Below are positions 18,166 to 54,943 of a DNA stretch of 55,669 nucleotides, in pieces. The notes beneath the pieces are model-generated. The model had not been told where the DNA came from, made no database searches, and saw only the letters and a program-made list of their open reading frames with translations. This stretch comes from a virus, in IMG/VR virus record IMGVR_UViG_3300037808_001257, positions 1-55,669 of that record. One strand, given 5' to 3'. Each line of letters starts with the position of its first letter. Position 1 is the stretch's first letter. Position numbers and translations under genes: made by a program.

Positions 18166-18173
18166 GTAGAAAT

Positions 18174-19013: not shown

Positions 19014-19510
19014 TGTCCGAGACAAAAACAAACAGGCACTTCACACAAACCGAGAAAGCTAAAAGAGGGTGGTGGGCTAGTGTAGTCTTTATGCTTTTAA
19101 TAATTGGTCTGATCTGGTTCTTGGCTAAACATGAAATTGTAGAAAAAAACCGAGACATACTAATCGGCATTATAGGAATGCTAACGGGTTCGATTTCTTC
19201 AATGTTAGCAATAGCTAGTGGTCGAGATCCTTCCGAAGTAGAAGAACTCAAAGATAAGCTAGCCTCGGCTAATGGTGACCGAGAAGCTCTTATTGCTCGG
19301 TTGAGAGATTGTCAAATCCAACTACAGTTATGTAGAGATCAGATTTTTGAACTTCAATCCGCAGTCATTAATAAGCTGTCATTGTTTGCAGGTGAAGCAC
19401 CAATAAAGTCAATGACAGAAAAAGATGTGGAGTTAAAAGGTGTTGTTAGTGAATGGAGTGTGCCTAATAACTCTGAGGGTAATCCTATTTCTGACGGGGA
19501 GTCTGATTGA
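19013..19510 (+). CDS. Two-helix membrane protein with coiled coil, coupled to the cyclase
   Basis: ATG 19013 shares its first base with the cyclase stop codon (TGATG), so the two are translationally coupled. The 165 residues have two hydrophobic segments, WWASVVFMLLIIGLIWFLA (about 20-38) and the Gly-rich ILIGIIGMLTGSISSMLAI (about 49-68). A coiled coil (EVEELKDKLASANGDREALI) and an acidic tail follow. This could be a holin-like or channel protein, or a membrane partner or effector of the cyclase. Its 3' end overlaps the convergent gene by 26 bases. Confidence 0.65.
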   Translation: MSETKTNRHFTQTEKAKRGWWASVVFMLLIIGLIWFLAKHEIVEKNRDILIGIIGMLTGSISSMLAIASGRDPSEVEELKDKLASANGDREALIARLRDCQIQLQLCRDQIFELQSAVINKLSLFAGEAPIKSMTEKDVELKGVVSEWSVPNNSEGNPISDGESD

Positions 19511-25147: not shown

Positions 25148-25738
25148 GTGTCAGAGATCAATAGAAATAAAAACATAAGAACAGCAGGTGAAGTTCGCTT
25201 CATCAAAGATGATTCTAATTCTCCTATGAACGCAGGAAATTGGGCATGGGGGGGCTTTCCTCCAACAAACAGAGAAATAAACCCTAACTTCAAGTTTGAT
25301 CCTGATTGTAGTGCGAAGCTCGTTGCTGTGTTGAAGAGTACTCTTTTTGCTTTAGGTCACACACTACACGCCTATGACATCTTCGCTAAACTTAAGAGTC
25401 GGAGTATTTCTCCAGATGGGAGTTTGGGAGGTAAGGGTTATATTCAAGAAGTGAAACATATGCGTAAGCAGTTTATGAATACTGTAGAAGCTCTCTCTGC
25501 TCTTTCTGACACTCTTAATGATGAAGTTAAAGCACCACATTGGGCTTTAGCTTCTAGAGATCCTCAAGAAGTTGATTCTATCAACGACATTAAAGAAGAT
25601 CCTGAGAAATATGCAGAGCGACAAATGAAAGAGGATGCAAAGTCAATAGAAGAATCTTCCAAAATCAGAACTGCAAGCATCCGCAAACGTGCTAGTGTTA
25701 CTATAGTAGCAGATAAATACATAAGGAGCATGAAATGA
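25148..25738 (+). CDS. Hypothetical head-region protein, 196 aa
   Basis: GTG 25148, six bases after AGGAG, is preferred over TTG 25142 that would overlap the upstream stop. The protein has an aromatic Gly/Asn/Pro-rich N-terminal part (NAGNWAWGGFPPTNREINPN), a long helical centre and a C-terminus IRTASIRKRASVTIVADKY with the [RK]xAS motif seen in other virion-type proteins here. It overlaps the next start by four bases (ATGA). Likely structural; family not recognised. Confidence 0.55.
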   Translation: MSEINRNKNIRTAGEVRFIKDDSNSPMNAGNWAWGGFPPTNREINPNFKFDPDCSAKLVAVLKSTLFALGHTLHAYDIFAKLKSRSISPDGSLGGKGYIQEVKHMRKQFMNTVEALSALSDTLNDEVKAPHWALASRDPQEVDSINDIKEDPEKYAERQMKEDAKSIEESSKIRTASIRKRASVTIVADKYIRSMK

Positions 25739-28089
25739 GTAACAACAGTAAACTTCCAAATGGTGGGTTTTCGCTTACAAATGGCTCTAACTATATGCTT
25801 GATGGTTTTAGTTTCGATACCGATTATGGAGATGGTGTTTTAGACAAAGCTCGTCTTCCCGAATCAAAAGGTATTTCTTCTCTACCGAAAGGTATGGTCC
25901 CTCCCGAAGGTTCATTGAGTTCAGACTTACCTATAGGTGTAGAGAGAGAAATAGATCTCGACCTCACTGATTTTACAAAATCAGCAGGTCAGCTTATACC
26001 CTTAGTAGATCATTCTTGGTTGGCGGAGCAGTCAAAAGAAGATTTAGAAGGTATGAGAACACATGATGATATACTTCAACAGTTTGCAGAGGGTAAGTTT
26101 GAGCATCCTCAAGTTAATCAGATAAAAGCACTTGAGGATGCTTGGGGTAAAGGTCAATCTACAGATGGCCTGTCTATCATTCCAAATTCTCAACGCAAAC
26201 ATGAAAAATACACCAATCGCTATGAAGAGGTTTCAGAGTTACCTGCGGATGCTTATCGACAAAGAGTAGAGCAAGCCATGAGGAAGCTCGCTTACGGTGA
26301 CAACTTGGAAGATATCCTCAAAGACCTAGAAGATATGATGTCTTCAGAGAAACAAATGAAGCAAGCTTCTGAGCTGATTATTTCTGAGCATGGTCTACAT
26401 GGTACTGTATATTTGAAAGAAGCATATTTCCCAGGGCTTTTTAATGGTAAGTGGGATGAGGTCGTAAATAAGAGGTGTGCTTCTTCTCTTTATATTATTC
26501 CGAAGAATGAGGGTTGTGCTTTCGATAGAGTCTTAGGGAAAGAGGTGGTGGCATCTATTCCTTGGAAGAAAGCGTATCAGACGCTCATGCCTCGATTAGA
26601 GGCTTTTGGTGTTTCTAAGGTTTCAGGTTCCAGCTATCAATCTATGTTACAACAAGCTTTCATAGACTCTAAGTCTTTGGGAGGAAATACTCATGTAGCA
26701 AACACATGGTTTCCAACTCAAAACTTTGAGTTCGAGAGTATTTCTTCTGAAGACGCACAAAGAGAACTACAAGCTTCTGAATACTCAGATTTCTTTATTG
26801 AGCAAAAAGCAGATTTAAAGCTTGTGCGTTTAGAGCGTATTGCTTCTCAACTTGTGGGTCAGGGTTTCTTAGACTCAGATCAAGTTGAGGCAGTAGTTTC
26901 TTCAGGTAAAACCGCCCAACAGAAAATAGATCGTCTTTATGATCTTGCTTCTACTCCTGTTAAGTCCTCAGAGTATGAAGGGCGTGGGAAAGATGCCCAC
27001 TATTTAGCACCACGAAGAAATACAGACGTTGCTCAACCTGTACCTGTTGGAGAAATAAGTCTGGCTAAAAGAAATAAGTTGGCTATGAATAAAGTCGCTA
27101 AACTTATTTCTAGTGGTCTTATTTCTTATGAAGACTTAGAGCAGGTTACAAAAGGAATGAAAACACCTGAAGCTAAATTAGCTTCAGTACTCGATTTCTT
27201 ATCTAAACCTAAATCAGTTCAGAGTTATGCTGGTCATGTTAATAAAGCACATGTCATTACGGCTAGAAATAAAATGCCCACTGAAAAAGTGGTCTCTACA
27301 GAAGTTGTTGAGGGTAAGAAAATTGCTAGCCGTATTGAATACTTTGTAACGAATGGGTTCATTTCTTCTGAAGACGCAAATGCGAGCATGGCTCTTGACG
27401 GAAACGCTAAGTATAAGTCACTCTTTAAATTAGCTAAAGAGGGCGTGTCTTCTAAGAAAGTTGACTTTAGTGGGCATCATTTTGAAGCTCATATTTCTAA
27501 GAGGGCTTCTGCACCTACCAAGACAGCTCATGAAGTACAATCACATAAAGTGGCTACTTGGCTGAGACAAAAGATGACTGAGGGTTCAGCAGGACAAGAG
27601 CTTGATATCTTGTTAAGTTCGAGGTTCTCTCAGAATGTCCTTGATTCACATAAAGATAGGATTTCGTCTTTGAGGGCCGACCACGAAGGTATTTCTGGTC
27701 ATGCCTATGTCGATACTGAAGCGTATATGACTAGCGGTACTGAGGGTTGTGATAAAGGTGCTCTCATCCATAGAGCCAATCAGATTCCTTCTATTCTTAA
27801 GAACGCAAAATGTGGTGGTTGCGTGTTCAATGTTGGAGGGTCTTGTCAGAAATACAATAAGTGTGCTGTAGATGCTTCAAGCGAAATAGTAGAAGATAAG
27901 GCGAGTTATCAGAGTGAAACGATTAGAATCGCTAACTCTACAGATGCTGAGAGGACAGCTTCTCTTTTTGTTAATAACTACGACCATTCAGAGTTTAACT
28001 TGACTACTAACAACAACTTATCTTTTTCAGACGAAGCACCTAGTCTTGAAAAAATAGGTGAAGTGTTGTTTGGTGGGATAGAACTGTAG
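25735..28089 (+). CDS. 784-aa head-region protein with three internal repeats and a Cys cluster
   Basis: Three related segments of about 50 residues can be read: ERIASQLVGQGFLDSDQVEA, NKVAKLISSGLISYEDLEQV and KIASRIEYFVTNGFISSEDA. Each is followed by a K-x-x-x-L-[FY]-x-L-A-like helix. Each looks like an EF-hand-like or helix-turn-helix pair and carries the [KR][IV]A motif. Near the C-terminus a cysteine cluster CGGCVFNVGGSCQKYNKCAV could bind metal. No enzyme motif is visible. Position before the terminase suggests a virion or assembly role, perhaps a multi-copy internal protein. Confidence 0.6.
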   Translation: MSNNSKLPNGGFSLTNGSNYMLDGFSFDTDYGDGVLDKARLPESKGISSLPKGMVPPEGSLSSDLPIGVEREIDLDLTDFTKSAGQLIPLVDHSWLAEQSKEDLEGMRTHDDILQQFAEGKFEHPQVNQIKALEDAWGKGQSTDGLSIIPNSQRKHEKYTNRYEEVSELPADAYRQRVEQAMRKLAYGDNLEDILKDLEDMMSSEKQMKQASELIISEHGLHGTVYLKEAYFPGLFNGKWDEVVNKRCASSLYIIPKNEGCAFDRVLGKEVVASIPWKKAYQTLMPRLEAFGVSKVSGSSYQSMLQQAFIDSKSLGGNTHVANTWFPTQNFEFESISSEDAQRELQASEYSDFFIEQKADLKLVRLERIASQLVGQGFLDSDQVEAVVSSGKTAQQKIDRLYDLASTPVKSSEYEGRGKDAHYLAPRRNTDVAQPVPVGEISLAKRNKLAMNKVAKLISSGLISYEDLEQVTKGMKTPEAKLASVLDFLSKPKSVQSYAGHVNKAHVITARNKMPTEKVVSTEVVEGKKIASRIEYFVTNGFISSEDANASMALDGNAKYKSLFKLAKEGVSSKKVDFSGHHFEAHISKRASAPTKTAHEVQSHKVATWLRQKMTEGSAGQELDILLSSRFSQNVLDSHKDRISSLRADHEGISGHAYVDTEAYMTSGTEGCDKGALIHRANQIPSILKNAKCGGCVFNVGGSCQKYNKCAVDASSEIVEDKASYQSETIRIANSTDAERTASLFVNNYDHSEFNLTTNNNLSFSDEAPSLEKIGEVLFGGIEL

Positions 28090-32583: not shown

Positions 32584-32850
32584 ATGAGTAAGCCAATAAA
32601 ACCGAAGTCTCGTCTTTCTGCTGACCATCGTGTCATTGCACGAATATTAGAGTTATCTCATGGAGATAAAAAGCCTTCAGAAAAGAAGCTAGATCTATGC
32701 TCAAAAGTTTTCAGCAATGCAGGTGGTAGTTGGTATGATTTCTTTGAAGGTAAACCACATACAGTAAAACTTTTAAAAAGAGTAATACTTGCGGTGGACA
32801 TGAAAGAAAAATTAGATGCTAAAAAAAAGGGGCGATTAGATGACGAATGA
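32584..32850 (+). CDS. Small basic protein between terminase and portal, 88 aa
   Basis: It begins two bases after the TerL stop and overlaps the portal start by 11 bases, hence is surely co-translated. The protein is basic at both ends (MSKPIKPKSRLSADHRVIAR; KEKLDAKKKGRLDDE) with a compact helical middle (SNAGGSWYDFFEGKPHTVKLL). No family is recognised. The position suggests a packaging or portal-assembly accessory. Confidence 0.6.
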   Translation: MSKPIKPKSRLSADHRVIARILELSHGDKKPSEKKLDLCSKVFSNAGGSWYDFFEGKPHTVKLLKRVILAVDMKEKLDAKKKGRLDDE

Positions 32851-34516
32851 AGAACCTAAAAAAGTAGGTACGGTCAAAACAAAAGATGGCGTAACTACTA
32901 GACACCTTAAGCCTTTTGAGATGAGATCTCGTGTTAAAGTAGCGATGACCACATCAGGCACACAGATGGGTTCAGGTGGTAATTTTTACTCGCCAGAGCT
33001 ATCTACAGACTTCCTTGAGCTTCCCCAAAGCCAAGACGAACAACGTAACTATTTCAGATTTTTCTATCGTACGGACCCTTTTGTAGGTCAAGCAGTAGAC
33101 TTACATACTGAACTACCCCTTTCAAAAATAAGGCTTGGGATGCCGAAGGCTCAAAACAGAGAGATGGCTATGGCTTCTCTCAGATTTTGTGAGAAATGGG
33201 GCAAAAGAGTCGGGCTTCTTCATCGTCTTATAGAAATACTTCATGAATATAACTTGCTTGGAGAGGTGTTTGTCTTCTGCGAGGATAATAATCCCGATAT
33301 GCCTAAATCTGTGACACATAACCAAAGAAATGAGTTGTCTCCTAATGGAGACATAGATGTTATTTGGGAGAAATATGAGGATGCAGATGATCGTGCTTAT
33401 GTTTGGATGAAGAAGAACTATCTAGGATGGACAGGCATTAGAGTTCTTCCGCCAGAACAAGTCCACATGGAGTCTTTTCCCTTTACAGACCAAAAGATCA
33501 TAGAACTCATTCCTGATTCTAAGACTAAGAGTGTAGTCGAGAGAGCTTCAATCCAAGACCCTGAAGCGATGCGGATTGTAGATTCAATGCCTGAAGACGT
33601 GGTTGGTGCTATTCGGGAAGGTAGAAACATCCCTTTGAACAGTGACTCTGAAAAAGGCTCGTTTGTCTATTATATGGCACGAAAGAAATCTCAATATGAG
33701 CCGAGAGGACACTCTATGTTGGAGCGTTGTCTCAGAATACTAGTTTATCGAGATAAGCTCAGACAGGCAAACACTTCGATAGCTTCTCGTCACATGACCC
33801 CCATACGTCTCGTTTATGCAGAAGATATGGATATGGCAGATGTGGAGGCTCTCAGAGAACAAGTTGACTTAGCGTTACAAGATCCAGATTATTCGATCAT
33901 CTCTAACTTTCAAATTTCTTGGGAAGAAATGGGTAGCGATCAGCGTCTACTCGACTTAGGCTCAGAGTATGACATGACCGATAGACAGATGTATGCAGGT
34001 CTTGGAGTCACCGAGTCCTTGCTTAGTGGTGAGTCTAGTTATAGTGGAGATCGTATTAATTTAGAAGTTATCAACACTCGCTATATGCTCATGCGAGAAA
34101 TACTACAGGAAATGGTTGAGGAAAATATTCTTAAACCAATGTGTAGACGAATGGGTTTTGTAGAAGAAGATGAAGATGGGCAAGAAATAGTAGTTCACCC
34201 AACTCTTAGTTTCACTCGTCTTGGTCTTCGTGATAACCAAGATACTTTTGATGCACTCTTTAATCTGTATCAGAAGGGTTCGTTGGATATAGACATCATT
34301 CTTGAACTTCTCAATGTAGATCCGGAATCTACTAAGAGAAAACTTGAGCGTGATATGTGGACTCTTAATGATAGTCAGTTCAATGAAGTTCTCAGAGGTA
34401 TTTATGGGGAAGCAGGTCGTATGATTTCTGAAAACACAGGTGTGGTGGAACAGATAGCTGAAAATCTTGGGTTGAAATACACACCTGCTGACGAAGGTGA
34501 TGATGGGAGATTTTGA
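32840..34516 (+). CDS. Portal protein
   Basis: Forms the dodecameric DNA channel at the capsid vertex. The 558 residues show the usual portal pattern: an N-terminal region FRFFYRTDPFVGQAVDLHTE, a beta-rich wing with GEVFVFCEDNN and RVLPPEQVHMESFPF, and the long central helix and clip region (YRDKLRQANTSIASRHMTP). An FQISWEEMGSDQRLLDLG stretch is followed by LGVTESLLSGESSYSG, which resembles the tunnel-loop region of portals. Position next to TerL and before the protease supports it. Confidence 0.88.
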   Translation: MTNEEPKKVGTVKTKDGVTTRHLKPFEMRSRVKVAMTTSGTQMGSGGNFYSPELSTDFLELPQSQDEQRNYFRFFYRTDPFVGQAVDLHTELPLSKIRLGMPKAQNREMAMASLRFCEKWGKRVGLLHRLIEILHEYNLLGEVFVFCEDNNPDMPKSVTHNQRNELSPNGDIDVIWEKYEDADDRAYVWMKKNYLGWTGIRVLPPEQVHMESFPFTDQKIIELIPDSKTKSVVERASIQDPEAMRIVDSMPEDVVGAIREGRNIPLNSDSEKGSFVYYMARKKSQYEPRGHSMLERCLRILVYRDKLRQANTSIASRHMTPIRLVYAEDMDMADVEALREQVDLALQDPDYSIISNFQISWEEMGSDQRLLDLGSEYDMTDRQMYAGLGVTESLLSGESSYSGDRINLEVINTRYMLMREILQEMVEENILKPMCRRMGFVEEDEDGQEIVVHPTLSFTRLGLRDNQDTFDALFNLYQKGSLDIDIILELLNVDPESTKRKLERDMWTLNDSQFNEVLRGIYGEAGRMISENTGVVEQIAENLGLKYTPADEGDDGRF

Positions 34517-38667: not shown

Positions 38668-40020
38668 ATGGCTTTTCTTAGGTATGCTAGGGCTAACATA
38701 GTTCGTCCCCAGCTCCATTCTATGGAGTGGGATAAAGTGAGAATTGCTTCAGGGTCTTCTAAGCTGAATAGCTCTTTGAGAAAGAAAGCAGAAGACATAC
38801 TTGGAGAACCTTTTACTCCTGAAAGATTTCTTTTAACACATGCTACTATTGTATGTTCTGTTGATGCAGTTAAAGTTCCGGGGTCTAAGATAGGCTCAGT
38901 TACTGAAGGAAATATTCAGATCAATAGGAAATACTCAGATTATAGAGTTACTTCTGAAACGGACAAATACATCAACAATAATTTAGACTGTTGGTCTAGG
39001 GGTGTAATTAAAAAGTCGTACTCGACTTTTGTTGGTGCTCACAATTTTGTTGAACACGTTCAGATTGAGGAACTAAGTAAAGGTCGCATTGTTGACGCTG
39101 TTCTTCGAGATGTTGGTGAATCTATCTATGTGGATATTCTTGTAGCCACAGATAAGAAACATGAAGATCTTGTCAACCAAATCCTTTCTGGTGAAATGAA
39201 CGGTATGTCGATGGGTTGTAGTGTCGATTTCACTGTTTGTACTAAATGTGGACATGTAGCAGCGGATGAAGCTCAAATGTGTACTCATGTTAAGTATGAA
39301 AAAGGGAACTCTTTCTTTGATGAGAGTGGAAACAAACATCGTGTAGCAGAACTCTGTGGTCATGATACTGAGGGAGACACAGGTGGGGTTACTTTTATAG
39401 AAGCTTCTTGGGTTTCCGTCCCTGCCTTTCGTGGTGCAGTGGCAAGAAATACTTTAGAAATACCTACAAAAAAAGCGTCTTTGAATTCCATCCCTTCTCA
39501 ATGGCTAACAAAAACAGCCGGGCCGTTTGATGAGGATGATGATGAAGGCTCTGATGAGGGCGAGTCTTCCGATTCTGATACCTCTGAGTCATTCTTAAAC
39601 CAGATCGAAGATGTTATCAAAGATGCCGTTCTTGACAAGTTAAAGAAAAAGCTTCAAAAAGAAATAGATGTGAGTTCTGGTAAGGAAACCCCTCCAACCA
39701 CACCTATAAATGTTACGGATGATACTGTAATAAAAGAAGCTTCAAAGAAATACTTGCTCAATCTTGATTTTGCAGTTAAGAAGGCATCTTCTAAAGCTCA
39801 TACTATTCGCAATATTAGGATAGTCAATGATCACTTTGATGTTTATTTGCCGAACCATATTTACAAAGTTGCAGAACAAATCGACTTTAATAAGAAATAT
39901 GGTAGCGTAAGTAACCTTATTAAAGAGGCTGAGAGTCTTCTCGGCTTTAAACTCAACAAAAAAGACTCCATTCGTCTTGTTAGATTAGCTAAACTGATCT
40001 CGCTAAAATCTGAGCAGTAG
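38668..40020 (+). CDS. Prohead maturation protease
   Basis: Serine protease that cleaves scaffold and capsid proteins during head maturation. Of 450 residues, the catalytic core is in the first 270. It has the prohead-protease pattern FVEHVQIEE with His130, followed by GRIVDAVLRDVGESIYVDIL and NGMSMGCSVDF with Ser181, then a CTKCGH ... CTHVKY cysteine cluster and EASWVSVPAFRGA. The C-terminal 180 residues, after an acidic Asp/Glu/Ser linker, are probably a targeting or autoprocessed extension. They contain VRLAKLISLKSEQ at the end. A 6-bp hairpin (40012-40028) spans the stop codon. The next gene is the likely substrate scaffold. Confidence 0.85.
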   Translation: MAFLRYARANIVRPQLHSMEWDKVRIASGSSKLNSSLRKKAEDILGEPFTPERFLLTHATIVCSVDAVKVPGSKIGSVTEGNIQINRKYSDYRVTSETDKYINNNLDCWSRGVIKKSYSTFVGAHNFVEHVQIEELSKGRIVDAVLRDVGESIYVDILVATDKKHEDLVNQILSGEMNGMSMGCSVDFTVCTKCGHVAADEAQMCTHVKYEKGNSFFDESGNKHRVAELCGHDTEGDTGGVTFIEASWVSVPAFRGAVARNTLEIPTKKASLNSIPSQWLTKTAGPFDEDDDEGSDEGESSDSDTSESFLNQIEDVIKDAVLDKLKKKLQKEIDVSSGKETPPTTPINVTDDTVIKEASKKYLLNLDFAVKKASSKAHTIRNIRIVNDHFDVYLPNHIYKVAEQIDFNKKYGSVSNLIKEAESLLGFKLNKKDSIRLVRLAKLISLKSEQ

Positions 40021-40050: not shown

Positions 40051-42240
40051 ATGTCACAACGTAAATATCCCGCTTTTAATCGCAGGGCTAACTCTGCAAT
40101 GCCCGGTTACGACAACAATGGTTACGATTCTTTCGGACACCCTGCTGCCCAAGATCAACCTTCTGTAGATGCTTATGGTATTGATTCAGAGTTTGGTGAG
40201 GGCGTTACTGACGGACCTTACAGCTCAGGCCCTGCTCCTGCTTCTTATGGTTGGATGCCTGATCATCCTGCAACTCAAGACCAAACTATTTCAGACTACG
40301 AGTCAACTCGTTCTTTGAAAGAGCAAAATCTTAAGCTCGCTATGGAGAGAAAAGCTTCAAAGTGCATTGAGATTGCAGAGCACAGACTCGGTAAGTTTGC
40401 TTCTCAAGATGAAGTAGAAGACCTCGCTCTTCGCTTTATGGATCTCCCGAATCGTGCAATCACTGCTCGACTTCAGAGAATCGCTTCTGATTTCTTAGCA
40501 GGAGATGAGATGCAAGACGAGACTGGTTATGAGGGCGATGATGTTGGTCCTGGAAATGTCATGGCAGAAGACCTCCTTTCAGACGAGGATCTTATGGCTG
40601 ACGAGGATCTTATGGCAGATGTGGATCTTATGGCTGACGAGGATCTTATGGCTGACGATACTGAGTCTATGAGTCCTGCTGAAGTTCTTGCAGAGGAAAT
40701 CTCAATGCTTCGCCAAGCGAATATGCGTTTGCGTTCTGAGTTAAAAAAAAAAGCAGAAGAAGAAGTCCAAGATGAGACTGGCTACGAAGGCGATGACGAG
40801 AGTGTAGATACTCTTGAGGATTCTGAGCCTGACGATGAGCCTACTCAGAAACTTGCAGGTCTTTCTCGTCTTGCTTCAGTTCTCAGTAGTATGATGGCTG
40901 AAGAGGAAGATGCTTCATCACATGAGTTGATGGCAGATCTTCTTGCTGAAATGGAAATCCTTGCTAAGAGCTATAAGAATCACAATGATTATGGTGAGGC
41001 TATTGATGATGATTCTTTCTACCAAAAACCTGCTGAGAGAGGTGCAAGACGCTCTCAAAAAGGCGGAGGTATGTGGGATGCTCAAGTAAAGCAAAACCAC
41101 AATGATCTCTACTATAGAGACAACCCTGACATTTGGGATGTTAAGAGTCGTGCTCCAGGTGAGAAACCTCGTGATGCTAAGAAAAATGTGAACCATACAA
41201 TCGGTGATGGCGGAGCTAAATCTGTTTCTACTGCTCAAAATGAGACTAAGCGTGTTCGTAAGACTCGTGAGAGATCAGCAGATGACATTCTTTCAGAAGA
41301 TCAGTTTGCAGAGCTTCTTGCTACTCTTGAGATGGTTGCTAGAGGCAATAAGAAAAATAAGAGAAATAAGTGGTCTGATGCACCTTATGGAGAAACATTA
41401 AAAGGCGACTTTGGTTATATGGAGCCGCAACAGAGAGTAGATAACCAATCTACTAAAGGTAAGAGTGGTTGGCCTCTTGCGATTAAAGAAGGGTACAATG
41501 AAGCCTATTACCAAAAGTTCCAGGAAAATTGGAAGAAGCAAGCGATGGATCTCAATGCTGAAGAGCGAGATATGCTTGCTGCGATGCTTGCAGAAATTGA
41601 AACTGCTGAAGAGCAACCAGAGGTTGTAGCGTCTTCACAGGAGGCTTCAGACGAAGAAATCTTAGCAAATATGCTTGCAGAAATTGAAACTGCTGAAGAG
41701 CAACCAGAGGCTGTAGCGTCTTCACAGGAGGCTTCAGATGTAGATCCTATGGCTTCAGACGAAGATCTTATGGCTTCAGATGTAGATCCTATGGCTTCAG
41801 ACGAAGATCTTATGGCTTCAGACGAAGATCTTATGGCTTCAGACGAAGATCTTATGGCTTCAGACGAAGAGACCACTATGGTAGCTCCTATGGCTTCAGA
41901 AGATTTGGCAGATCAGAATGATCCACATCACTTCGCAGAAGACATTATGGGTCTTTCTGATGACGAAGTTGGTATCGACCCTAAACTTGCTCGTATTTTC
42001 TCCGCAGGAGATGAGATGCAAGATGCTACAGGGAATGAAGGCGAGGACGTTGGTCCTGGAAATGCTTCAGAGGAAGATGGAGAGTCAGCATCTGAGAAGT
42101 CAGCATCTTTCCGTCCTCAGACTACTGCACGTCAGTCTTCTGTTAAGACTCTAGGAAATATTTCTCGTGAAGCCTCTTCGGCATCTGACGAGCTTTCTAA
42201 ACTTTGGGAGTCTGCTCCTGACGTAAGTAAGTTCTTCTGA
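40051..42240 (+). CDS. Acidic repeat protein, probable scaffold or prohead core
   Basis: 729 residues, strongly acidic, placed between the protease and capsid genes where scaffolds usually lie. It contains two arrays of short repeats (see 40582 and 41737), a longer 29-residue repeat (period 87 bases: MLAEIETAEEQPE...) and two copies of a segment like AGDEMQD-[EA]-TG-x-EG-[DE]-DVGPGN (about residues 150-175 and 650-675). Several regions of the Asn/Tyr-rich type (KNHNDYGEAIDDDSFYQKP) suggest binding surfaces. Repeated D-x-D-L-M-A units could be protease cleavage sites. No enzyme motif. A virion decoration role is an alternative. Confidence 0.6.
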   Translation: MSQRKYPAFNRRANSAMPGYDNNGYDSFGHPAAQDQPSVDAYGIDSEFGEGVTDGPYSSGPAPASYGWMPDHPATQDQTISDYESTRSLKEQNLKLAMERKASKCIEIAEHRLGKFASQDEVEDLALRFMDLPNRAITARLQRIASDFLAGDEMQDETGYEGDDVGPGNVMAEDLLSDEDLMADEDLMADVDLMADEDLMADDTESMSPAEVLAEEISMLRQANMRLRSELKKKAEEEVQDETGYEGDDESVDTLEDSEPDDEPTQKLAGLSRLASVLSSMMAEEEDASSHELMADLLAEMEILAKSYKNHNDYGEAIDDDSFYQKPAERGARRSQKGGGMWDAQVKQNHNDLYYRDNPDIWDVKSRAPGEKPRDAKKNVNHTIGDGGAKSVSTAQNETKRVRKTRERSADDILSEDQFAELLATLEMVARGNKKNKRNKWSDAPYGETLKGDFGYMEPQQRVDNQSTKGKSGWPLAIKEGYNEAYYQKFQENWKKQAMDLNAEERDMLAAMLAEIETAEEQPEVVASSQEASDEEILANMLAEIETAEEQPEAVASSQEASDVDPMASDEDLMASDVDPMASDEDLMASDEDLMASDEDLMASDEETTMVAPMASEDLADQNDPHHFAEDIMGLSDDEVGIDPKLARIFSAGDEMQDATGNEGEDVGPGNASEEDGESASEKSASFRPQTTARQSSVKTLGNISREASSASDELSKLWESAPDVSKFF
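40582..40653 (+). repeat. 18-bp in-frame tandem repeats, DEDLMA units
   Basis: Four 18-base units (40582, 40600, 40618, 40636) encode D-E-D-L-M-A, one with D-V-D-L-M-A. They lie inside the acidic head protein gene. Near-identity at DNA level implies recent slippage or recombination. Confidence 0.9.
41584..41738 (+). repeat. 87-bp period direct repeat in the acidic head protein
   Basis: The stretch starting ATGCTTGCAGAAATTGAAAC at 41584 is repeated from 41671 with very few differences for about 68 bases. It encodes MLAEIETAEEQPE-[VA]-VASSQEAS twice. Confidence 0.9.
41737..41862 (+). repeat. 21-bp in-frame tandem repeats, D[EV]D[LP]MAS units
   Basis: Six 21-base units start at 41737, 41758, 41779, 41800, 41821 and 41842. 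They alternate first between GATGTAGATCCTATGGCTTC-A and GACGAAGATCTTATGGCTTC-A, then become homogeneous. They encode DVDPMAS or DEDLMAS. Confidence 0.9.
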
Positions 42241-43061: not shown

Positions 43062-43937
43062 ATGAGTACCGTAGATAATGCAGTAAAACAGAAGATTATT
43101 TCTGACTATATTAAGACTCCACAGGGTCGTAGCAAACTCGCAGCCAGCATGACTCAGCCTTTGCGTCTTCGCAGAGACTATACGAGCGTTGGTCGTAAGA
43201 CTTTCCTCGTTGAGCAACTTCCTGATGGTGCGTTGCCGATTTATGACAAAGATCCAGACGTGACTGCGTTTGTGGTTGGTGAAGAGGGTGAGAACATTCT
43301 CGCTATCACCAAGCCTAGACGTGTGATTTTCCCTCTTTTTGAGATTGCGTCTAACCCTGAGATCCCATTGACTCAAATCAAAGAGAGACGCTTCGATCTG
43401 ATCGAGCGTGCTCAAGATTTGGCTCGTGCTCAGATCCAAGCGGCGGAAGACGAGCGTGTATTCGCTATTCTTGACGCAGTTGCTACTTCAGGCTTTGATA
43501 GCGTTCCTGGTCAAACTAACGCTGACATTCCTGTTATCGCTCCTCTCAATGGTGCTGTTCTTGCTGATGCTTTTGCTCTCATCGAGAGACATGACCTTCG
43601 TGTTGCTCGTATCTTCATGAACGCTCGTGATTATGCTGACATCCGTAAGTTCGGTAGAGACATTCTTGACATTGAGAGCCAAGCGGCTCTCCTCAAGACA
43701 GGTCTTCAAGCGACTCTTTGGGGTGCTCAGATTATCACTAGTCGTCTTGTTCCTGTTGGAACTGTGTACGCCACTTGTGAGCCTGAAATGTTCGGACGTA
43801 TCCCTGTTCGTACTGAGCTTACCGTTCTTTCTGCTGATGATCCAAAGGCTCGTACCATTGGTTTCAGCGTTTTTGAGAACTTGGGTATAGGTGCATATAA
43901 CCCTAAGGGCCTTGCACGACTCACCGTTACTCGCTAA
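43062..43937 (+). CDS. Major capsid protein, HK97-like
   Basis: 291 residues, ending in a strong terminator. The N-terminal arm (QGRSKLAASMTQPLRLRRDY) is followed by an E-loop-like region with VEQLPDGALPIYDKDPDV and a long spine helix (LIERAQDLARAQIQAAEDER). A P-domain/A-domain pattern ends in LWGAQIITSRLVPVGTVYA and FSVFENLGIGAYNPKGLARL. Helix-rich spine plus GAQIITS-type strand is characteristic of HK97-fold capsid proteins. Codons are more biased and GC-richer than in neighbours, as expected for a highly expressed gene. AAAGGAG precedes ATG 43062. Confidence 0.85.
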   Translation: MSTVDNAVKQKIISDYIKTPQGRSKLAASMTQPLRLRRDYTSVGRKTFLVEQLPDGALPIYDKDPDVTAFVVGEEGENILAITKPRRVIFPLFEIASNPEIPLTQIKERRFDLIERAQDLARAQIQAAEDERVFAILDAVATSGFDSVPGQTNADIPVIAPLNGAVLADAFALIERHDLRVARIFMNARDYADIRKFGRDILDIESQAALLKTGLQATLWGAQIITSRLVPVGTVYATCEPEMFGRIPVRTELTVLSADDPKARTIGFSVFENLGIGAYNPKGLARLTVTR

Positions 43938-45521: not shown

Positions 45522-45552
45522 CCTCATTTCCCTTTGGGAGATGGGGTTTTTT
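45522..45552 (+). terminator. Terminator B, duplicate of terminator A
   Basis: Identical to terminator A over 46 bases (45505-45550), with TTTTTT after the stem. It ends the membrane-protein/endonuclease transcript. Confidence 0.85.
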
Positions 45553-45570
45553 CGTTTTTATAATAGTTTT

Positions 45571-45583
45571 TTTGTTTGTTTAT
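45571..45583 (+). promoter_or_regulatory. Candidate phage promoter element TTTGTTTGTTTAT (copy 5)
   Basis: An exact copy of the 13-mer, immediately downstream of terminator B and 50 bases before ATG 45634. Confidence 0.4.
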
Positions 45584-45633
45584 CTTCTCTGTTAGGTGTT
45601 GTTATCTTTAATAACACACATGGAGAAATGATT

Positions 45634-46038
45634 ATGAGAAGATCAGCATCAGAAATACTTAGAGACTTAGAAAAAAGAGTAGCAACGCTTGAATATAGAG
45701 ACTCTAAATTAGAGGTCTATGTTCAGGTTGAGTTTGATGATCAAGATGGTAGTCGCCCATTTATAGATAAAAGAACCTTTCGCAACATAGAAGACCTAGT
45801 AGGTTTCCTTAAAAGTTCGCATCCAGATAATGGTAAGTATGACGAGCTAGTAGATAATAGAAATAAAGAAGTAAAATCTATCTCTGCCTTGAGGGTTGGT
45901 AAACTGGTTCAGCTTTTAACTGTGACGGAGGATGAAACCGTCACCGCCTCAATTCTCATTGTAAAAGCCAATAATTTGGATCTGGTACAGCTAGGTAGAG
46001 CACTCTTTGATGATCTTTATGATAAATATAAGAGTTAA
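45634..46038 (+). CDS. Hypothetical protein with N-terminal RSASEIL tag, 134 aa
   Basis: ATG 45634 is eight bases after GGAG; ATG 45628 is too close to it. The first 20 residues, MRRSASEILRDLEKRVATLE, match the start of the gene at 46171 and more loosely that at 16553. The rest is an alpha/beta protein without a recognised fold. The gene has its own promoter-like motif and terminator, i.e. a self-contained cassette. A shared leader on unrelated bodies suggests a common targeting or processing signal. Confidence 0.6.
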   Translation: MRRSASEILRDLEKRVATLEYRDSKLEVYVQVEFDDQDGSRPFIDKRTFRNIEDLVGFLKSSHPDNGKYDELVDNRNKEVKSISALRVGKLVQLLTVTEDETVTASILIVKANNLDLVQLGRALFDDLYDKYKS

Positions 46039-46069
46039 TAACTTCTGTATTGCAATTTTAAAACGCTCT

Positions 46070-46093
46070 ATTTCCTTCGGGTGTTGGGGTTTT
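46070..46093 (+). terminator. Terminator C, degenerate copy
   Basis: Resembles terminators A and B in sequence (ATTTCC ... GTTGGGGTTTTCTCG), but the stem is interrupted by mismatches. It lies between the two tagged genes. Function is probably weaker. Confidence 0.45.
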
Positions 46094-46170
46094 CTCGTTT
46101 CTAGGATAGTTCTTTTATTATTGCATATAAGTGTTGTTATCCCCCTTTAGCTACATATGGAGAAATAAAA

Positions 46171-46788
46171 ATGAGAAGAACAGCATCAGAAATAATTAAT
46201 GACCTTGAGATCAGGGTAGCCCGTCTTGAAAGAACAGCATTAGTTGAAGGAACACCAAAAGTAGCTCAATTACATATCCAAGCAAAAAGCTATGATCGTG
46301 TATTTTACTCTCCAAAGCCATTCACTTCTTTTCGTAATGTAAGTCAAGATCAAGGCTACACACTATACGAGAAGCCTAAAGGTCTTTGGTACTCTTGTGG
46401 TAAGGATTGGAAATATTTTGTTCAGACAAATATGGAACATGCAAGATATCCTCACAAATATTTACTTGAAGTAAATCTTAATCGTATGTGTGTGGTACGA
46501 ACAGAAAAAGAGTTATTGAAATTTAGTGAGAAATATGGAGAGCTAGAAAAACCAGATATTAACTTTAAGGGTGATAAAGGAAGATGGGCAGTTGATTGGA
46601 ACAAGGTATCAAGAGACTATGATGGGATAGAGATATGTCCGTACATAGATATTGATTGGAGCTTGAAAGAGTATTATAAATGGTACGATTTTTGGGATGT
46701 GGCAAGTGGCTGTATTTGGGGTAAGGGTGCAATTAAAGATATTACTGAAGTTGACAGCGACATGGGAGATAACGAGTTCCGCTATTAG
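46171..46788 (+). CDS. Hypothetical tagged protein with KPKGLWYS motif
   Basis: GGAGAAATAAAA precedes the ATG. After the tag MRRTASEIINDLEIRVARLE, the 205-residue protein has a distinctive body: FTSFRNVSQDQGYTLYEKPK, GLWYSCGKDWKYFV, then VSRDYDGIEICPYIDID and WDVASGCIWGKGAI. I recall similar KPxGLWxS ... YDGIEI ... WDVASGCIW proteins in viruses as an uncharacterised family. The beta-rich order could fit an ADP-ribosyltransferase-like fold, but I cannot verify the catalytic triad. It is a one-gene cassette between terminators C and D. Confidence 0.6.
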   Translation: MRRTASEIINDLEIRVARLERTALVEGTPKVAQLHIQAKSYDRVFYSPKPFTSFRNVSQDQGYTLYEKPKGLWYSCGKDWKYFVQTNMEHARYPHKYLLEVNLNRMCVVRTEKELLKFSEKYGELEKPDINFKGDKGRWAVDWNKVSRDYDGIEICPYIDIDWSLKEYYKWYDFWDVASGCIWGKGAIKDITEVDSDMGDNEFRY

Positions 46789-48796: not shown

Positions 48797-49816
48797 TTAT
48801 TTTGAAGATTCTACAATGACTTTTGCTACTCGATAAGGGTCCGCATTTGCATTTGGTCTTCGATCCTCAAAATAGCCTTTTTTATCTCTTGCGGTTGTGA
48901 TTGGGATTCTAACAGAAGCAGTTCTGTCAGAAACTCCCCATTTAAACTCGTCATAGCGACAGGTTTCATGTTTGCCTGTAAGTCGTATTTCATAACCGTC
49001 CCCATACTCGGAGAGGTGTTCAGAAATACGGTTTCCCATAGTAGACATTATTTCTTCTATTACGGCTAGACCTCCTTCAGATCTTGTAGCTTCTGTAGAA
49101 AAATTGATGTGCATTCCTGCTCCATTCCAATCTCCAGTGACAGGCTTCGGTTCGAGTGTTGCAGAAATATTATATTTCTCTCCTATTCTATAAAGTAGCC
49201 AACGTGCTACCCACAGACAATCTGAACCTGTTAGAGGGTCTACTCCCGGACCTCCTACTTGGAACTCCCATTGTCCTGGCATAACTTCCGCATTAATACC
49301 TGTAATCGGTATTTCAGAAGAAATACAAGCCGATAAGTGTTCCTCAACGAGTTCTCTGCCCGAAACTTCGTCTGCACCTACTCCACAGTAATAAGGTCCT
49401 TGTGCGGGAGGGTATCTTCTTTCTGACGGAAACCCTAAAGGTTTTGACCCAAGAAATAATGTATACTCTTGCTCAAACCCTACCCAAGCATCCAAGTTAG
49501 GTTTTTCGTTAAGAATCTCTCTCAACTTAGCTCTGTGGTTTGTAGGGTGTGGGTTTCCATCAACATCGTATACTTCGCAAAGAATGAGGACAGTGTGGAT
49601 TCCTTTTCTTGTGGGGTCAAAGCAATAGAACACAGGTTCTAAAACACAATCAGAGTTATTTCCTTCTGCTTGTTCTGTGGAAGAACCATCGAAAGACCAC
49701 TCAGGAAATACAGATAAGCTGATTTTATCTTCTATTTCGAGGACTCTTGTTTTTGATCTGATTCTTGACGTTGGGTTTCCACCGTCAATCCAAAGATATT
49801 CTGCAATCACATTCAT
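48797..49816 (-). CDS. Type II (eukaryote-type) glutamine synthetase
   Basis: Makes glutamine from glutamate, ammonia and ATP. The 339 residues, starting at the ATG after AAAGAGAGAAG, match GSII length and landmarks: AEYLWIDGGNPTSRIRSKTR, FPEWSFDGSSTEQAEGNNSD, PHPTNHRAKL, FEQEYTLF, PYYCGVGAD, GINAEVMPGQWEFQVG, TGDWNGAGMHINFSTE and the C-terminal RRPNANADPY. Metal and ATP site glutamates (EQE, NAEVMPGQWE) are intact, so it should be active. GSII is normal in eukaryotes and some bacteria; I know of few phage examples. It overlaps the DUF3310 gene by four bases in a reverse-strand operon. Confidence 0.95.
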   Translation of the reverse strand: MNVIAEYLWIDGGNPTSRIRSKTRVLEIEDKISLSVFPEWSFDGSSTEQAEGNNSDCVLEPVFYCFDPTRKGIHTVLILCEVYDVDGNPHPTNHRAKLREILNEKPNLDAWVGFEQEYTLFLGSKPLGFPSERRYPPAQGPYYCGVGADEVSGRELVEEHLSACISSEIPITGINAEVMPGQWEFQVGGPGVDPLTGSDCLWVARWLLYRIGEKYNISATLEPKPVTGDWNGAGMHINFSTEATRSEGGLAVIEEIMSTMGNRISEHLSEYGDGYEIRLTGKHETCRYDEFKWGVSDRTASVRIPITTARDKKGYFEDRRPNANADPYRVAKVIVESSK

Positions 49817-50034
49817 TGTGCTTCTCTCTTTCTGTCTATTTCTCTCTGTAGATACCATATTGCTTTTTTTAAATCCTCTTCCATTTGTTCTTCAGGTTTC
49901 TTACCTGCTCTCAGAATATACTTCAAAGCAGACCCTAAAGAGAAGTTCAACTTGTAAGACTCAATCACATCTATGGCTTCCATATTTTTAGATTGGTAGT
50001 GTTCAGGATGGTTTATTTTCTCGTATGCACTCAA
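49813..50034 (-). CDS. DUF3310-family phage protein
   Basis: 73 residues beginning at a TTG seven bases after AAGGAG. The pattern HPEHYQ ... EAIDVIESYKLNFSLGSALK followed by YILRAGKKPEEQMEEDLKKA is the signature of the DUF3310 family found in many phages, of uncertain function and sometimes annotated as nucleotide kinase without good proof. It is translated just before glutamine synthetase, with a four-base overlap (ATGA), so a link to nucleotide supply is plausible. Confidence 0.85.
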   Translation of the reverse strand: MSAYEKINHPEHYQSKNMEAIDVIESYKLNFSLGSALKYILRAGKKPEEQMEEDLKKAIWYLQREIDRKREAQ

Positions 50035-50502: not shown

Positions 50503-50549
50503 TTTGTTGATATGTTTCCTTCTTTTACTTAAGAATGGAGGAGACGAAG

Positions 50550-52307
50550 ATGGATCGTTTTTATTCACATAGTCAACCCTCCCAAGATTTGGCTGGGGTC
50601 AAAACTTGGGTAGATAAATCTCGCCAAGATGGGGTAGAAGAAGACACTTCTACACCACAATCTAGCAGACCTGATTATGCAGATGGTAAGCCACAGAGAG
50701 ATCGTGTTCTTCCTTTACCAAGTGGACACCCCAAAGGTAGAGACGAACAACGTGTTGGCCCTCCAATACATAATGTACCTTCAGACTCAGCAGGGAATAC
50801 AAATACTAAACCCAAGAGTGAATTTGCTATTTCTGACCACCCCGATGGTAAACCCCTCCACCAAAGACCAAGGTCTTCAGGTATTCCTGGAGATCAGTAC
50901 GGCTCTCCACATATAGATCAGTCTCAATCTACAGGAATGAAAAGGAGAGTTCTTTCTTCTGACTCTTACTATGGTCGAGGGAAGATAAATATTCGCCCAC
51001 CTCAGAGGAGACAACGAAAAACGAGGGGGCGTGTCCGTAGGCTTTATAATTTGTATCGTAAAAAAGTACTACGAACAAATCGCAGTAAAGCTAAACAAGA
51101 CAGAAGACGATATTATCGGAGAAATAAAAGGCGTATTCTTATGTATCAGAAGAGACGCAGACAGTCTCCTAAGAGATATGTGCGGTATGATGGAGGTGGG
51201 CAGTATTCACCTACCAAAAAAAATAAAGACATGCGAAATAAGAGGGCGGGTAGTTTTATGGATCTAGAACAAATGAAGAGAGAGGCATTACATGAAGTAA
51301 TGTCGTCTATGTATAAAGAAGTTGTTGCCCCTGTAGAAACTTCAGATGTTAAATTCTCAGAAGAAACACAAGCCCGTTTTAAAAGTGGTCCGGGAAGCAG
51401 ATCTCGACCTAAACAACAGAAGCAAAGAGCCAAGAGAAAGAAACAAACAGGAGGTTCGCTCTTACAATCAAGACGTAAGGCGAAAGCTTATTACCGAAGA
51501 AATAAAAGTAAGATTAAGCGTAATGTGAAGACATGGCGTAAAAAATACAAAAACACTCTTAAAAGGTACAAGAGACCAGGTCGTCGGGCTTCAGAGTTAC
51601 AGATGCTTTTGAATATTCCTTGTCGTGTATTAGGATGTGAAGCCATGCTATACAGTGTGAACCCACTACAAAACTCAATCCACATGAGATCTGAAATAGG
51701 GGATTTAGAGATGCCTTTGTCTCACTTCTTCGCATTTGTTGATTGGGAAGATCCTACACAAGAAAAAATGCTTGAAGAAATATATGTTGAGAGCCTTTCA
51801 GATTATTTCTCATTGGAGACAGCAAGAGAGAGCGATTTAGTAAAGAAGACTGCGAGTATTTCTATGAATAGTTTAACTGCACTTCAGATACTCCTAGCGT
51901 GTTTGAGAGGGGCTCATTGGGCACATTGGACAAGTCATTGGCAAGTCAGAGGAGATGCGTACTATGGAGATCATCTTTTAATGGAACGTATGTATGGTGG
52001 TCTTGTAGAGGAAATAGACACACTTGCTGAAAAGATTGTAGGTTCTTATGGTCCAGAAGCTGTTGGTCCTGTTGATCAAGCTCAGATTATGGCAAACACC
52101 CTTCTCCCTATCGTTGAGATGCAAGCACAAGAGCATCCTATTTTAAGAGCTTTAGTCGTAGAACAAGCTTTACAGAAGGTCTTCAAAAGAGTGTATGAGT
52201 TTCTCAAAGAACAGGACACTCTTTCTTTAGGTATGGATGACTTTATTATGTCGTTAGCTTCACAACATGAAACTAATGTATATTTAATCAGACAAAGGTT
52301 GAGATAG
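50550..52307 (+). CDS. Basic-repeat protein fused to a Dps/ferritin-like domain
   Basis: ATG 50550 follows GGAGGAG; 585 residues. The first 145 residues are polar and disordered with repeated DGKP/HP segments. Two highly basic blocks follow (about 160-220 and 305-350): AKQDRRRYYRRNKRRI and RRKAKAYYRRNKSKIKRNVK, sharing YYRRNKxxI. After a beta-rich linker comes a C-terminal four-helix domain with RGAHWAHWTSHWQVRGDAYY then GDHLLMERMYGGLVEEIDTL. This has the HW...GD.H.L.E..Y..L..EID pattern of Dps/ferritin-like proteins. Basic arms plus a Dps fold suggest DNA condensation or protection in the capsid; iron binding is uncertain. Confidence 0.75.
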   Translation: MDRFYSHSQPSQDLAGVKTWVDKSRQDGVEEDTSTPQSSRPDYADGKPQRDRVLPLPSGHPKGRDEQRVGPPIHNVPSDSAGNTNTKPKSEFAISDHPDGKPLHQRPRSSGIPGDQYGSPHIDQSQSTGMKRRVLSSDSYYGRGKINIRPPQRRQRKTRGRVRRLYNLYRKKVLRTNRSKAKQDRRRYYRRNKRRILMYQKRRRQSPKRYVRYDGGGQYSPTKKNKDMRNKRAGSFMDLEQMKREALHEVMSSMYKEVVAPVETSDVKFSEETQARFKSGPGSRSRPKQQKQRAKRKKQTGGSLLQSRRKAKAYYRRNKSKIKRNVKTWRKKYKNTLKRYKRPGRRASELQMLLNIPCRVLGCEAMLYSVNPLQNSIHMRSEIGDLEMPLSHFFAFVDWEDPTQEKMLEEIYVESLSDYFSLETARESDLVKKTASISMNSLTALQILLACLRGAHWAHWTSHWQVRGDAYYGDHLLMERMYGGLVEEIDTLAEKIVGSYGPEAVGPVDQAQIMANTLLPIVEMQAQEHPILRALVVEQALQKVFKRVYEFLKEQDTLSLGMDDFIMSLASQHETNVYLIRQRLR

Positions 52308-52309
52308 TT

Positions 52310-54943
52310 ATGTCTGTAACCAGCTTTTCAGGTCCAGATCGAGATCTCGTTGCTTTCTTTGAGAAGAACGTGGGCATTTTTGAGGTAGTTGTAATAAAAG
52401 ACTTTTGTTTTTTTGAAGTAGAGAAAAGTATCAAAAAGGACTTAAAGTCGTTCTTGGAGGGGTCTCCTTCCTCGATCCGCCCTTGGTCTTTATCTCTATT
52501 CGCTTGGGAGAGGACTCTAGGTAATATTTCTAACTATGATTTAACTTACGACTTCAAGTTAATAGAATCAAATTGGATTCTTAAAATGGTTAGTGGTGTT
52601 CTCACTGCAACAGGCACTGTTAAAGTAACCTTTGAAATGGATTACAAATTAAAAACAGGTACTAGTCATACTAGTGTGTTTTCTACTCAGAAGTCCTTCA
52701 ATCTTAGCATGAAAGAAGATACCGCCTTAAGTAACTTATATTTTATGTACTTGTCGGGGAGCAATCAATATAGGCGTTTCGCTACACAACACTTAATTAA
52801 TAGGTCATATGTGGACTATTGTGGGGATGGAAGAAGTCCAAGAGCCAACAAGTTAGCTACTAGATATTCAGTGGAAAAACAGTATGGTAAGAAAGCAGAT
52901 TTCTACAGAGAAGTTTCACCCCCAGACTCTCTCTCTAGCTTTACGACAGGAACTCCTGTTGGGGATTCAGAAAATCCTGATGGCACAAAAGACAACAGTG
53001 CTTTACCCGATGGAGATTCTGCAAGAAATATAGGCAGACCTTCTCCCGACTCACCTAACCTTAAATATCGTAATTTAGATAAATCTGAGGCTAATGGTAG
53101 AACACCTGCGAACAAACTTGATCTAGGCTATGTACATGACAGTGGTTCAGGTTCTGCTAGGGTTATCCCTTATGATAGTGGGTTTGAGAATAATAGCTCT
53201 CCTCTTAGAAATGCTTCGACCAAAGTTAAACCCATGTTTTTAGGGTCAGAAAGTGGAGCAATGGCTTACGATTTCTACTTTATGCGAGTCGAAAAAGACT
53301 ACTATTACCACTACACATACAGAGATCGTGCAGAAGAAATAATTGAAGACGGACATTTAAGACCTAACTTCTACAATGATCAGCCTGGTGCTAAAGGTGC
53401 TTACGCCATTTCTGGTTCTTATGGGCAAGAGGTTACGAGTCTTCAAGTTAGTGGTTCTAGGAAAGAACACATGGATAAAATCGTAGCTCTCAAGTTTAAG
53501 ACTAGAACTGAGCCAAAGTATGGTTACCCCGAAGAAGTCATTTGGGATAAGCCTGTGAAACTTATTCGACCAGAGATTGTGGGCGTTTCAAAAGCAGTAT
53601 CCGATCTGAACCGAAATGAAGACTTGGGAGAGAACTTCAAGGTGTTTTACGACTTCAAGAAGGCTGTCGAGATCAAAAAAGAATATGGGGAATCTAGTTC
53701 TAGGGTTGCAAGTAGATTCCGAATGCGAAGAGGATCTTTGACTAATCTTAGTCAACAGATAAAGCAAGAGTACGGGGTAGAATTATCTCTGCTTGATAAT
53801 GGGGAAATAATAGAATTAATAAAAATAGTGATACCAAAAGACCAAAGAGGGTTAGGTCTTGGGTCTAAGATTATGGGTGAGATTACAGCGTGGGCAGATC
53901 AAAAAGGGAAGATTATTTCTTTAACACCATCTAAGGATTTTGGAGGGTCTTCTGTTTCAAGGCTAGTTAGATTTTACTCTCAGTTTGGGTTTAAGAAGAA
54001 TAAGGGGAGAAATAAAGATTTCAGAACACGAGATACTATGCTCCGATATCCTTCTGAAGCACAAGGGGGGAAAGTAGCGGGGCTGATTAAACCCCCTAAG
54101 AGGTTGATCAACGATATTAATGATTTTGTTTGTCATACTTTCATCACTAACATCCTATATGGAGAAGATGAGTTTAGAGAAGGGTACCCAGAAGAAGAGT
54201 TACAATACTTCAGAGATAACAACTCCTTCACCTCCAAAGAAATAAAAGAGGCTCAGTATTCTGGGCTTGTTTTAAAAGAAATCGACTTCCCGTTGTCTTC
54301 TTATGGATTAGATGACACTCGATATAAAAATCTAAAAGTCTCTGTAAAGTGGGCAGACCCAAAAGGGAGTGCTTCAGCCCACTTCCACCCTGTGACAGGG
54401 GAGTTGTCGTTCTTTTGGATCGGGCAAATTTCTTCTAACTCTCATGGTGCGAAGCATTTTTGTAACTTCCTTAAGAGTATGGTTATCCATGAAGCTACAC
54501 ACGCCATGCAATATGTTAAACATGAAGGTGGTGGTCTACCTGCTAGAAAGAAAAAGCTCCCCTTTAATGTTTATGAATACTCAAAGAGTTCAAATTACCT
54601 AAATAATGTACGATATTTGAAGAATAAATATGGGGAGCGTTATGGAGAAGTCTTCCACACTCTTACTGGTGTTGAGTTTTACCCTGTCCTCTTACAACAG
54701 GTTTTAAGTTTTAGGTTTCATTTCCAAGAGCAGAATAAATCCCACACTAATTCAGATATTCGGAGATACTTGTCCGATAGCGATTTCTTTTTCTTTTTAA
54801 AAGAAGAAATGCCGAAAATGTACCTGAAGGCAGTTGGGATCTTTATAGATGAAGTGAATAAGACTAAAGAAGAAGGTTTATCTTATAAAAAAGCCTCTAG
54901 ACCTATTCGTGTTGCGAGCTTAATAAAAAAGAGTAGCTTCTGA
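52310..54943 (+). CDS. Polyvalent virion protein: ADP-ribosyltransferase-like, GNAT and HExxH protease domains
   Basis: 877 residues, starting two bases after the Dps fusion. Residues 1-180 are beta-rich and 190-305 a disordered linker. About 325-390 reads YYHYTYRDRAEEIIEDGHLR (H334-Y335-T336) then GAYAISGSYGQEV, resembling the H-Y-x start and second motif of ADP-ribosyltransferases. About 470-575 is a GNAT domain: IVIPKDQRGLGLGSKIMGE (R513-G518) with LVRFYSQFGFKKN. Near 720 is a zinc metallopeptidase motif VIHEATHAM (H727, E728, H731). RVASRF and the C-terminal PIRVASLIKKSSF carry the R-V-A-S motif. Polyvalent proteins of this kind are packaged and injected to act on the host; that role is inferred. 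Confidence 0.75.
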   Translation: MSVTSFSGPDRDLVAFFEKNVGIFEVVVIKDFCFFEVEKSIKKDLKSFLEGSPSSIRPWSLSLFAWERTLGNISNYDLTYDFKLIESNWILKMVSGVLTATGTVKVTFEMDYKLKTGTSHTSVFSTQKSFNLSMKEDTALSNLYFMYLSGSNQYRRFATQHLINRSYVDYCGDGRSPRANKLATRYSVEKQYGKKADFYREVSPPDSLSSFTTGTPVGDSENPDGTKDNSALPDGDSARNIGRPSPDSPNLKYRNLDKSEANGRTPANKLDLGYVHDSGSGSARVIPYDSGFENNSSPLRNASTKVKPMFLGSESGAMAYDFYFMRVEKDYYYHYTYRDRAEEIIEDGHLRPNFYNDQPGAKGAYAISGSYGQEVTSLQVSGSRKEHMDKIVALKFKTRTEPKYGYPEEVIWDKPVKLIRPEIVGVSKAVSDLNRNEDLGENFKVFYDFKKAVEIKKEYGESSSRVASRFRMRRGSLTNLSQQIKQEYGVELSLLDNGEIIELIKIVIPKDQRGLGLGSKIMGEITAWADQKGKIISLTPSKDFGGSSVSRLVRFYSQFGFKKNKGRNKDFRTRDTMLRYPSEAQGGKVAGLIKPPKRLINDINDFVCHTFITNILYGEDEFREGYPEEELQYFRDNNSFTSKEIKEAQYSGLVLKEIDFPLSSYGLDDTRYKNLKVSVKWADPKGSASAHFHPVTGELSFFWIGQISSNSHGAKHFCNFLKSMVIHEATHAMQYVKHEGGGLPARKKKLPFNVYEYSKSSNYLNNVRYLKNKYGERYGEVFHTLTGVEFYPVLLQQVLSFRFHFQEQNKSHTNSDIRRYLSDSDFFFFLKEEMPKMYLKAVGIFIDEVNKTKEEGLSYKKASRPIRVASLIKKSSF

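Follow-up and report, generated by a model that had tools for sequence, protein, structure and literature searches.

Phage head proteases have the scaffold and the protease itself as their classic substrates. In T4 the gp21 cleavage motif of the scaffold is also present in Alt and the internal proteins (PMC9026906), and the head proteases of the giant phages phiKZ and SPN3US cut after glutamate at the motif S/A-x-E (PMC5694885). Polyvalent proteins carry several enzyme domains per chain, with MPTase, ART and GNAT domains being typical; their processing has already been proposed, including autoprocessing for the MPTases in general, and phage N4 packages its virion RNA polymerase without processing it (PMC5512222). 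What is new in the present analysis is a module-shuffling family of such proteins in huge phages, a [KR]xAS signature that ties this family to the head protease, and the placement of this signature at module borders. No earlier description of a cut site of this kind in this lineage was found in the literature searched, although its absence is not thereby proven.

The stretch of DNA analysed here (the window) is a 55.7-kb piece (55,669 nucleotides) of an uncultured virus. Its portal protein shares 70% identity with the portal of the uncultured phage LR745208 (485 kb) and 27% with that of Bacillus phage G, which places the virus among the huge phages. Terminase, portal, protease and capsid genes stand upstream of an 877-residue ORF, and relatives show synteny; the ORF is thus encoded with the late/packaging genes of a portal-terminase phage:

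25735..28089, + strand: unknown protein, adjoining the terminase gene; seven [KR]xAS sites
32840..34516, + strand: portal protein; without [KR]xAS
38668..40020, + strand: head maturation protease, the proposed processing enzyme (phrog_18299, E 4e-15); four [KR]xAS sites in all, on both sides of the protein's middle
40051..42240, + strand: acidic scaffold-like protein, between the protease and capsid genes; six [KR]xAS sites
43062..43937, + strand: major capsid protein (phrog_2522, E 1.7e-50); without [KR]xAS
50535..52307, + strand: companion ORF with M8 low-complexity segment, basic region and C-terminal Dps/DUF5856-like domain; two [KR]xAS sites
52310..54943, + strand: ORF of the putative polyvalent effector; ATG start, 877 aa

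The scaffold role of the 40051..42240 protein is assigned from gene position and composition; the protein contains acidic tandem repeats (MADEDL/MASDEDL). The terminase large subunit gene is split by an intein with a LAGLIDADG domain (29450-32581). A near-identical start peptide, RR(S/T)ASEI..DLE.RVA.LE, is found in two adjacent ORFs (45541-46788) and also opens unrelated ORFs of other contigs. In the companion ORF, the Dps/DUF5856-like ferritin domain is joined to M8 and to a strongly basic region rich in Arg, Lys and Tyr, and the product is possibly a packaged DNA-binding protein.

The preliminary description had placed three sets of enzymatic motifs in the 877-residue ORF, and all were located where it had claimed: HYT (334-336) with AISGSYG (366-372), QRGLGLG (512-518) and HEATH (727-731), together with RVAS at 465-468 and 867-870. 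The order of modules is N-terminal domain, M7, ART-HYD1-like, GNAT and gluzincin:

52310..52864, + strand: N-terminal domain, residues 1-185 (hhalign E 5.3e-6, probability 86)
52895..53215, + strand: M7 low-complexity conserved segment, 196-302 (about 80% identity to many other architectures)
53207..53218, + strand: RNAS site, 300-303, M7/ART border
53237..53689, + strand: ART-HYD1-like module, 310-460, with HYT 334-336, YAIS 365-368 and EEV 408-410 (Tox-ART-HYD1 match, conservation)
53702..53713, + strand: RVAS site, 465-468, ART/GNAT border
53735..54052, + strand: GNAT module, about 476-581, with QRGLGLG 512-518 (family matches)
54071..54082, + strand: KVAG site, 588-591, GNAT/gluzincin border
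54077..54859, + strand: gluzincin-like module, 590-850, with HEATH 727-731 and E789 (homologue conservation, AF2 model)
54887..54919, + strand: KKAS (860) and RVAS (867) sites, C-terminal tail, 860-870

With at least two different effector or catalytic domains in one chain (GNAT, gluzincin and ART-like), the product is, judged by its sequence, a modular phage polyvalent protein. PADLOC and NCBIfam gave no match for it, and PDB sequence searches returned nothing useful. Domains were modelled one by one; an alignment of the whole protein with single-domain rows was misaligned.

The GNAT assignment is solid: at residues 478-584 there is a match of E 8e-27 to phrog_10691, a family that spans 3925 positions, and the module is 37-50% identical to DarB-like/PLxRFG proteins of small phages and to gp273 of the jumbo phage Tunturi_5. 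The acetyl-CoA-binding pattern Q/R-x-x-G-x-G/A is present as QRGLGLG (family consensus RKQGLGS), and the Pfam GNAT match is sub-threshold (E 2e-4). The gluzincin assignment is good. Across 14 gluzincin homologues H727, E728, H731, H783 and E789 are invariant (domain position n being residue 584+n), and the AF2 model (mean pLDDT 71.5) shows an N-terminal helix, a sheet, the HEATH helix and a later helix bearing E789, that is, HExxH with a Glu on a second, C-terminal helix as in zincin-like MPTases. Foldseek of this model against PDB gave no significant match; against BFVD the best matches were three viral proteins without a name (E 1.5e-5 to 5e-4), with polyvalent and 'structural' proteins scoring more weakly. 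The top BFVD accessions are, we take it, proteins of Salicola phage SCTP-2, and independently of that search the gluzincin profile matches SCTP-2 proteins (best E 1e-8). No match to the profile was obtained in phage G and Tunturi_5, and no cellular relative in the species-genome collection searched.

In case of the ART module, Tox-ART-HYD1 (PF15633) is the only family matched by all four ART members tested, with scores (E 0.015-0.05) under the curated cut-off and an aligned stretch that starts at HYT. HYT, (Y/F)AIS and EEV.W recur among ART homologues, and a divergent copy keeps H, YAIS and EEV.W; the HYD1-type signature (H, aromatic, acidic) is thus present in the expected order, divergent copy included. 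AF2 of residues 1-475 reached a pLDDT of 30 and did not confirm an ART fold. Because of the sub-threshold PF15633 score and this pLDDT we file the module as 'ART-like' rather than as an ART member; an ART fold at 310-460 is likely, and the ART assignment, made from motifs and profile, is one of moderate confidence. An ART match in LR745208 at 158 kb was weak and judged to be noise. The structural comparison that the preliminary description had called for was answered in part: the C-terminal third is zincin-like, albeit without a significant PDB match, whilst the N-terminal half gave no usable AF2 model. Its multi-activity effector is supported in part, as a putative three-activity polyvalent protein encoded in a virion-gene neighbourhood, the domain assignments being unequally certain: GNAT secure, gluzincin good, ART moderate.

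These modules are shuffled in related contigs. Among 29 non-redundant multi-module proteins from related uncultured huge-phage contigs we counted 26 architectures, built from two kinds of gluzincin, GNAT, ART, a Dps-like module, M7, M8 and the short M4-M6; residues 1-185 of the 877-residue protein remotely match (hhalign) a module that sits C-terminally in related proteins. In relatives the arrays sit within the virion-gene region: some contigs have them beside the portal gene, others downstream of the gene for the capsid protein, flanked by g47846 and by either a glutamine synthetase gene or g54993; the capsid protein of the window is about 95% identical to that of some array-carrying contigs. 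In several related contigs the effector arrays are accompanied by a class III cyclase-like gene with its neighbour (18162-19510 in the window) and by the glutamine synthetase gene (48797-49858), and the Dps/DUF5856-like domain of the companion ORF is also met in module arrays.

The short motif at the module borders proved to be more widespread than first described. RVAS had been noted in the centre and at the C-terminus, where it does occur, although not only there, as [KR]xA[SG] is found at 300, 588 and 860 as well. It had also been proposed as a packaging mark, which points in the right direction but is too narrow: the signature is [KR]xAS, and it is also present in the scaffold-like protein and the head protease. 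Across 39 window ORFs [KR]xAS occurs 47 times against 11.5 in shuffles, a fourfold excess (z 10.5), whereas all control patterns remain within z 1.7 and the permuted ones below z 1, and replacing the A or S by other residues returns the count to about background. The sites are concentrated in the scaffold-like protein, the head protease, the 25735 protein and the 877-residue protein, and are absent from the major capsid protein, portal and TerL of the window. A narrower pattern, RVAxRYL, was dropped for the broader [KR]xAS after control scans.

In module proteins 45 of 47 [KR]xAS sites stand between modules, counts across homologues not being independent of one another; since linker composition lifts all basic/Ser/Ala patterns, permuted patterns served as control and gave 3-12 linker matches in the same proteins. 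Of 12 occurrences of the strict form [KR][VI]Ax(R/L)(Y/F/H), 11 fall at termini or between modules, and the lone 'inside' case is the window's own ART/GNAT junction, scored so because the GNAT envelope overreaches there. One explanation would be that these tetrapeptides are functionless recombination seams or flexible linkers of common ancestry, in proteins that are ordinary late intracellular enzymes. The heavy reshuffling at the tetrapeptides and the common ancestry of the linkers would fit this, but the motif is sharp, it is enriched in the unshuffled scaffold-like and protease proteins, the loci lie in the virion-gene region, and codons differ between sites, so that [KR]xAS is a signal at the protein rather than the DNA-repeat level; we consider this explanation distinctly improbable.

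Other huge phages show the same excess. In G001 (z 10.3) the three richest ORFs are homologues of the scaffold-like protein, the 25735 protein and the protease; at 51-59% identity five of six sites are conserved in the scaffold-like protein and six of seven in the 25735 protein, while two of four are kept in the protease. In LR745208 the homologues of the same three proteins lead, the excess peaks at 380-420 kb, which is the head block, and a matrix for the longer border motif, trained on other phages, matches 16 ORFs against 2.6 in shuffles, several of the matches being near N-termini. Four stand-alone HExxH ORFs of this phage, including one related to gluzincin B, bear the longer form RVAxR(H/F/Y)L near their N-terminus. 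The first 80 kb of phage G, a cultured phage with published mass spectra of its virions, give z 4.5 (gp7, gp4, portal and the protease homologue gp19), and in Tunturi_5 the excess lies in the 260-kb and 300-kb bins. A mild excess is also seen in SCTP-2 (44 against 29, mostly in one bin), although its leader type differs. This distribution bears on a second alternative, namely that gluzincin domains cut the polyvalent proteins themselves and the head protease is uninvolved. Autoprocessing of this kind is the general proposal for MPTases (PMC5512222) and most arrays contain a gluzincin; against this, [KR]xAS is enriched in the scaffold-like protein and head protease too, phage G and Tunturi_5 are enriched yet lack a gluzincin-profile match, and L145 has many border sites in a locus without a gluzincin. 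We therefore judge such self-cutting to be very improbable.

The 877-residue protein is best read as an injected effector, in analogy to T4 Alt and to polyvalent proteins (PMC5512222), and [KR]xAS agrees better with a site of cleavage during maturation than with a mark for packaging alone. On balance we think it probable that head protease processing at [KR]xAS dices a packaged, injected effector polyprotein into single enzymes. The effector precursor would be recruited into the prohead during head assembly, where the phage head protease would cut [KR]xA|S, the bond marked here being a guess, and free single-domain enzymes; these would remain beside the DNA inside the head and then be injected, with the ART-like and GNAT units modifying host proteins and the gluzincin cleaving host or phage proteins early in infection. 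Cutting at K/R-x-A-S would separate effector units as well as trim them, although for those sites that lie between low-complexity segments propeptide trimming is possible instead of enzyme separation. We count against effector dicing that the major capsid protein and portal of the window are without the motif, that G001 keeps half of the protease sites, the SCTP-2 excess, the unconfirmed ART fold and the gluzincin's failure to find a significant PDB match.

Alternatively, the polyvalent effector could be packaged and injected but act uncut, with [KR]xAS as a docking or capsid-targeting motif bound by scaffold or core. The unprocessed N4 virion RNA polymerase (PMC5512222) is a precedent, and docking motifs would also be placed in linkers; however, several copies in the scaffold and protease themselves are what substrates would show, and a targeting motif is unnecessary at each module border, which leaves this alternative unlikely. 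Returning to dicing by the head protease, we tentatively extend it, with the chances close to balanced, to the huge-phage lineage from phage G-like phages to uncultured phages of about 500 kb: a K/R-x-A|S head protease might trim scaffold and itself and dice modular effector polyproteins in the prohead, with the cut-site code letting modules swap between genes like cassettes. If true, one short pattern would predict, for an entire lineage in which most proteins are without annotation, where the head proteome is cleaved and which effectors are packaged. It would also explain how active single enzymes arise from polyvalent proteins and what makes the exchange of modules so free.

Comparison with the known systems reveals both shared and differing features. 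With polyvalent proteins, including the DarB-like/PLxRFG proteins (PMC5512222), the 877-residue protein shares the multi-enzyme chain, the portal-terminase phage background and a homologous GNAT, and the helix/sheet order described for their MPTases is that of our gluzincin model. Tunturi_5 gp273 carries a Nudix domain, three ART-PolyVal domains and a GNAT domain, and its gene adjoins a minor head protein gene. However, the ART of the window is nearer to HYD1 than to the HYD2/ART-PolyVal type, modules are reshuffled here among neighbouring genes, the low-complexity segments M7/M8 are shared, and [KR]xAS stands at borders as well as in the scaffold-like protein and protease. As with T4 Alt and the internal proteins, effectors, scaffold and head protease have one short motif in common; the T4 motif is L/I-x-E in a leader of 7-20 residues (PMC9026906), whereas here it is K/R-x-A-S at internal borders and near termini. 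Such an L/I-x-E leader is absent from the N-terminus of the 877-residue protein (MSVTSFSGPDRDLVAFF), which would work like a T4-type capsid-targeted internal protein but is not a member of that group. In phiKZ and SPN3US many ejected head proteins are likewise cut by one phage protease at a three-residue motif and the protease removes its own C-terminal part, but their cut follows Glu (PMC5694885), whilst the motif here is without Glu.

The gluzincin proteins of SCTP-2, remote relatives of the window gluzincin, belong to a large set with similar leaders; they are single-domain proteins with T4-like M[KR]..LxE N-termini, in contrast to the chained modules with [KR]xAS described here. By raw count, about 44 of 348 SCTP-2 proteins open with a T4-like M...[LI]xE leader, many as M[KR]....LxE and several with HExxH, and these form a candidate list of packaged proteins. 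In Agrobacterium phage Atu_ph07 (4944-9876) a row of proteins that are ART-like by sequence inspection only stands beside a GNAT gene, and each of these proteins, the GNAT one included, starts with M[KR]WxQLxE or a close variant. From the SCTP-2 and Atu_ph07 leaders, the same kinds of enzyme seem to be tagged by whichever head-protease motif the phage has, and T4-like leaders on the SCTP-2 relatives of the gluzincin are what would be expected if the tag follows the head protease.
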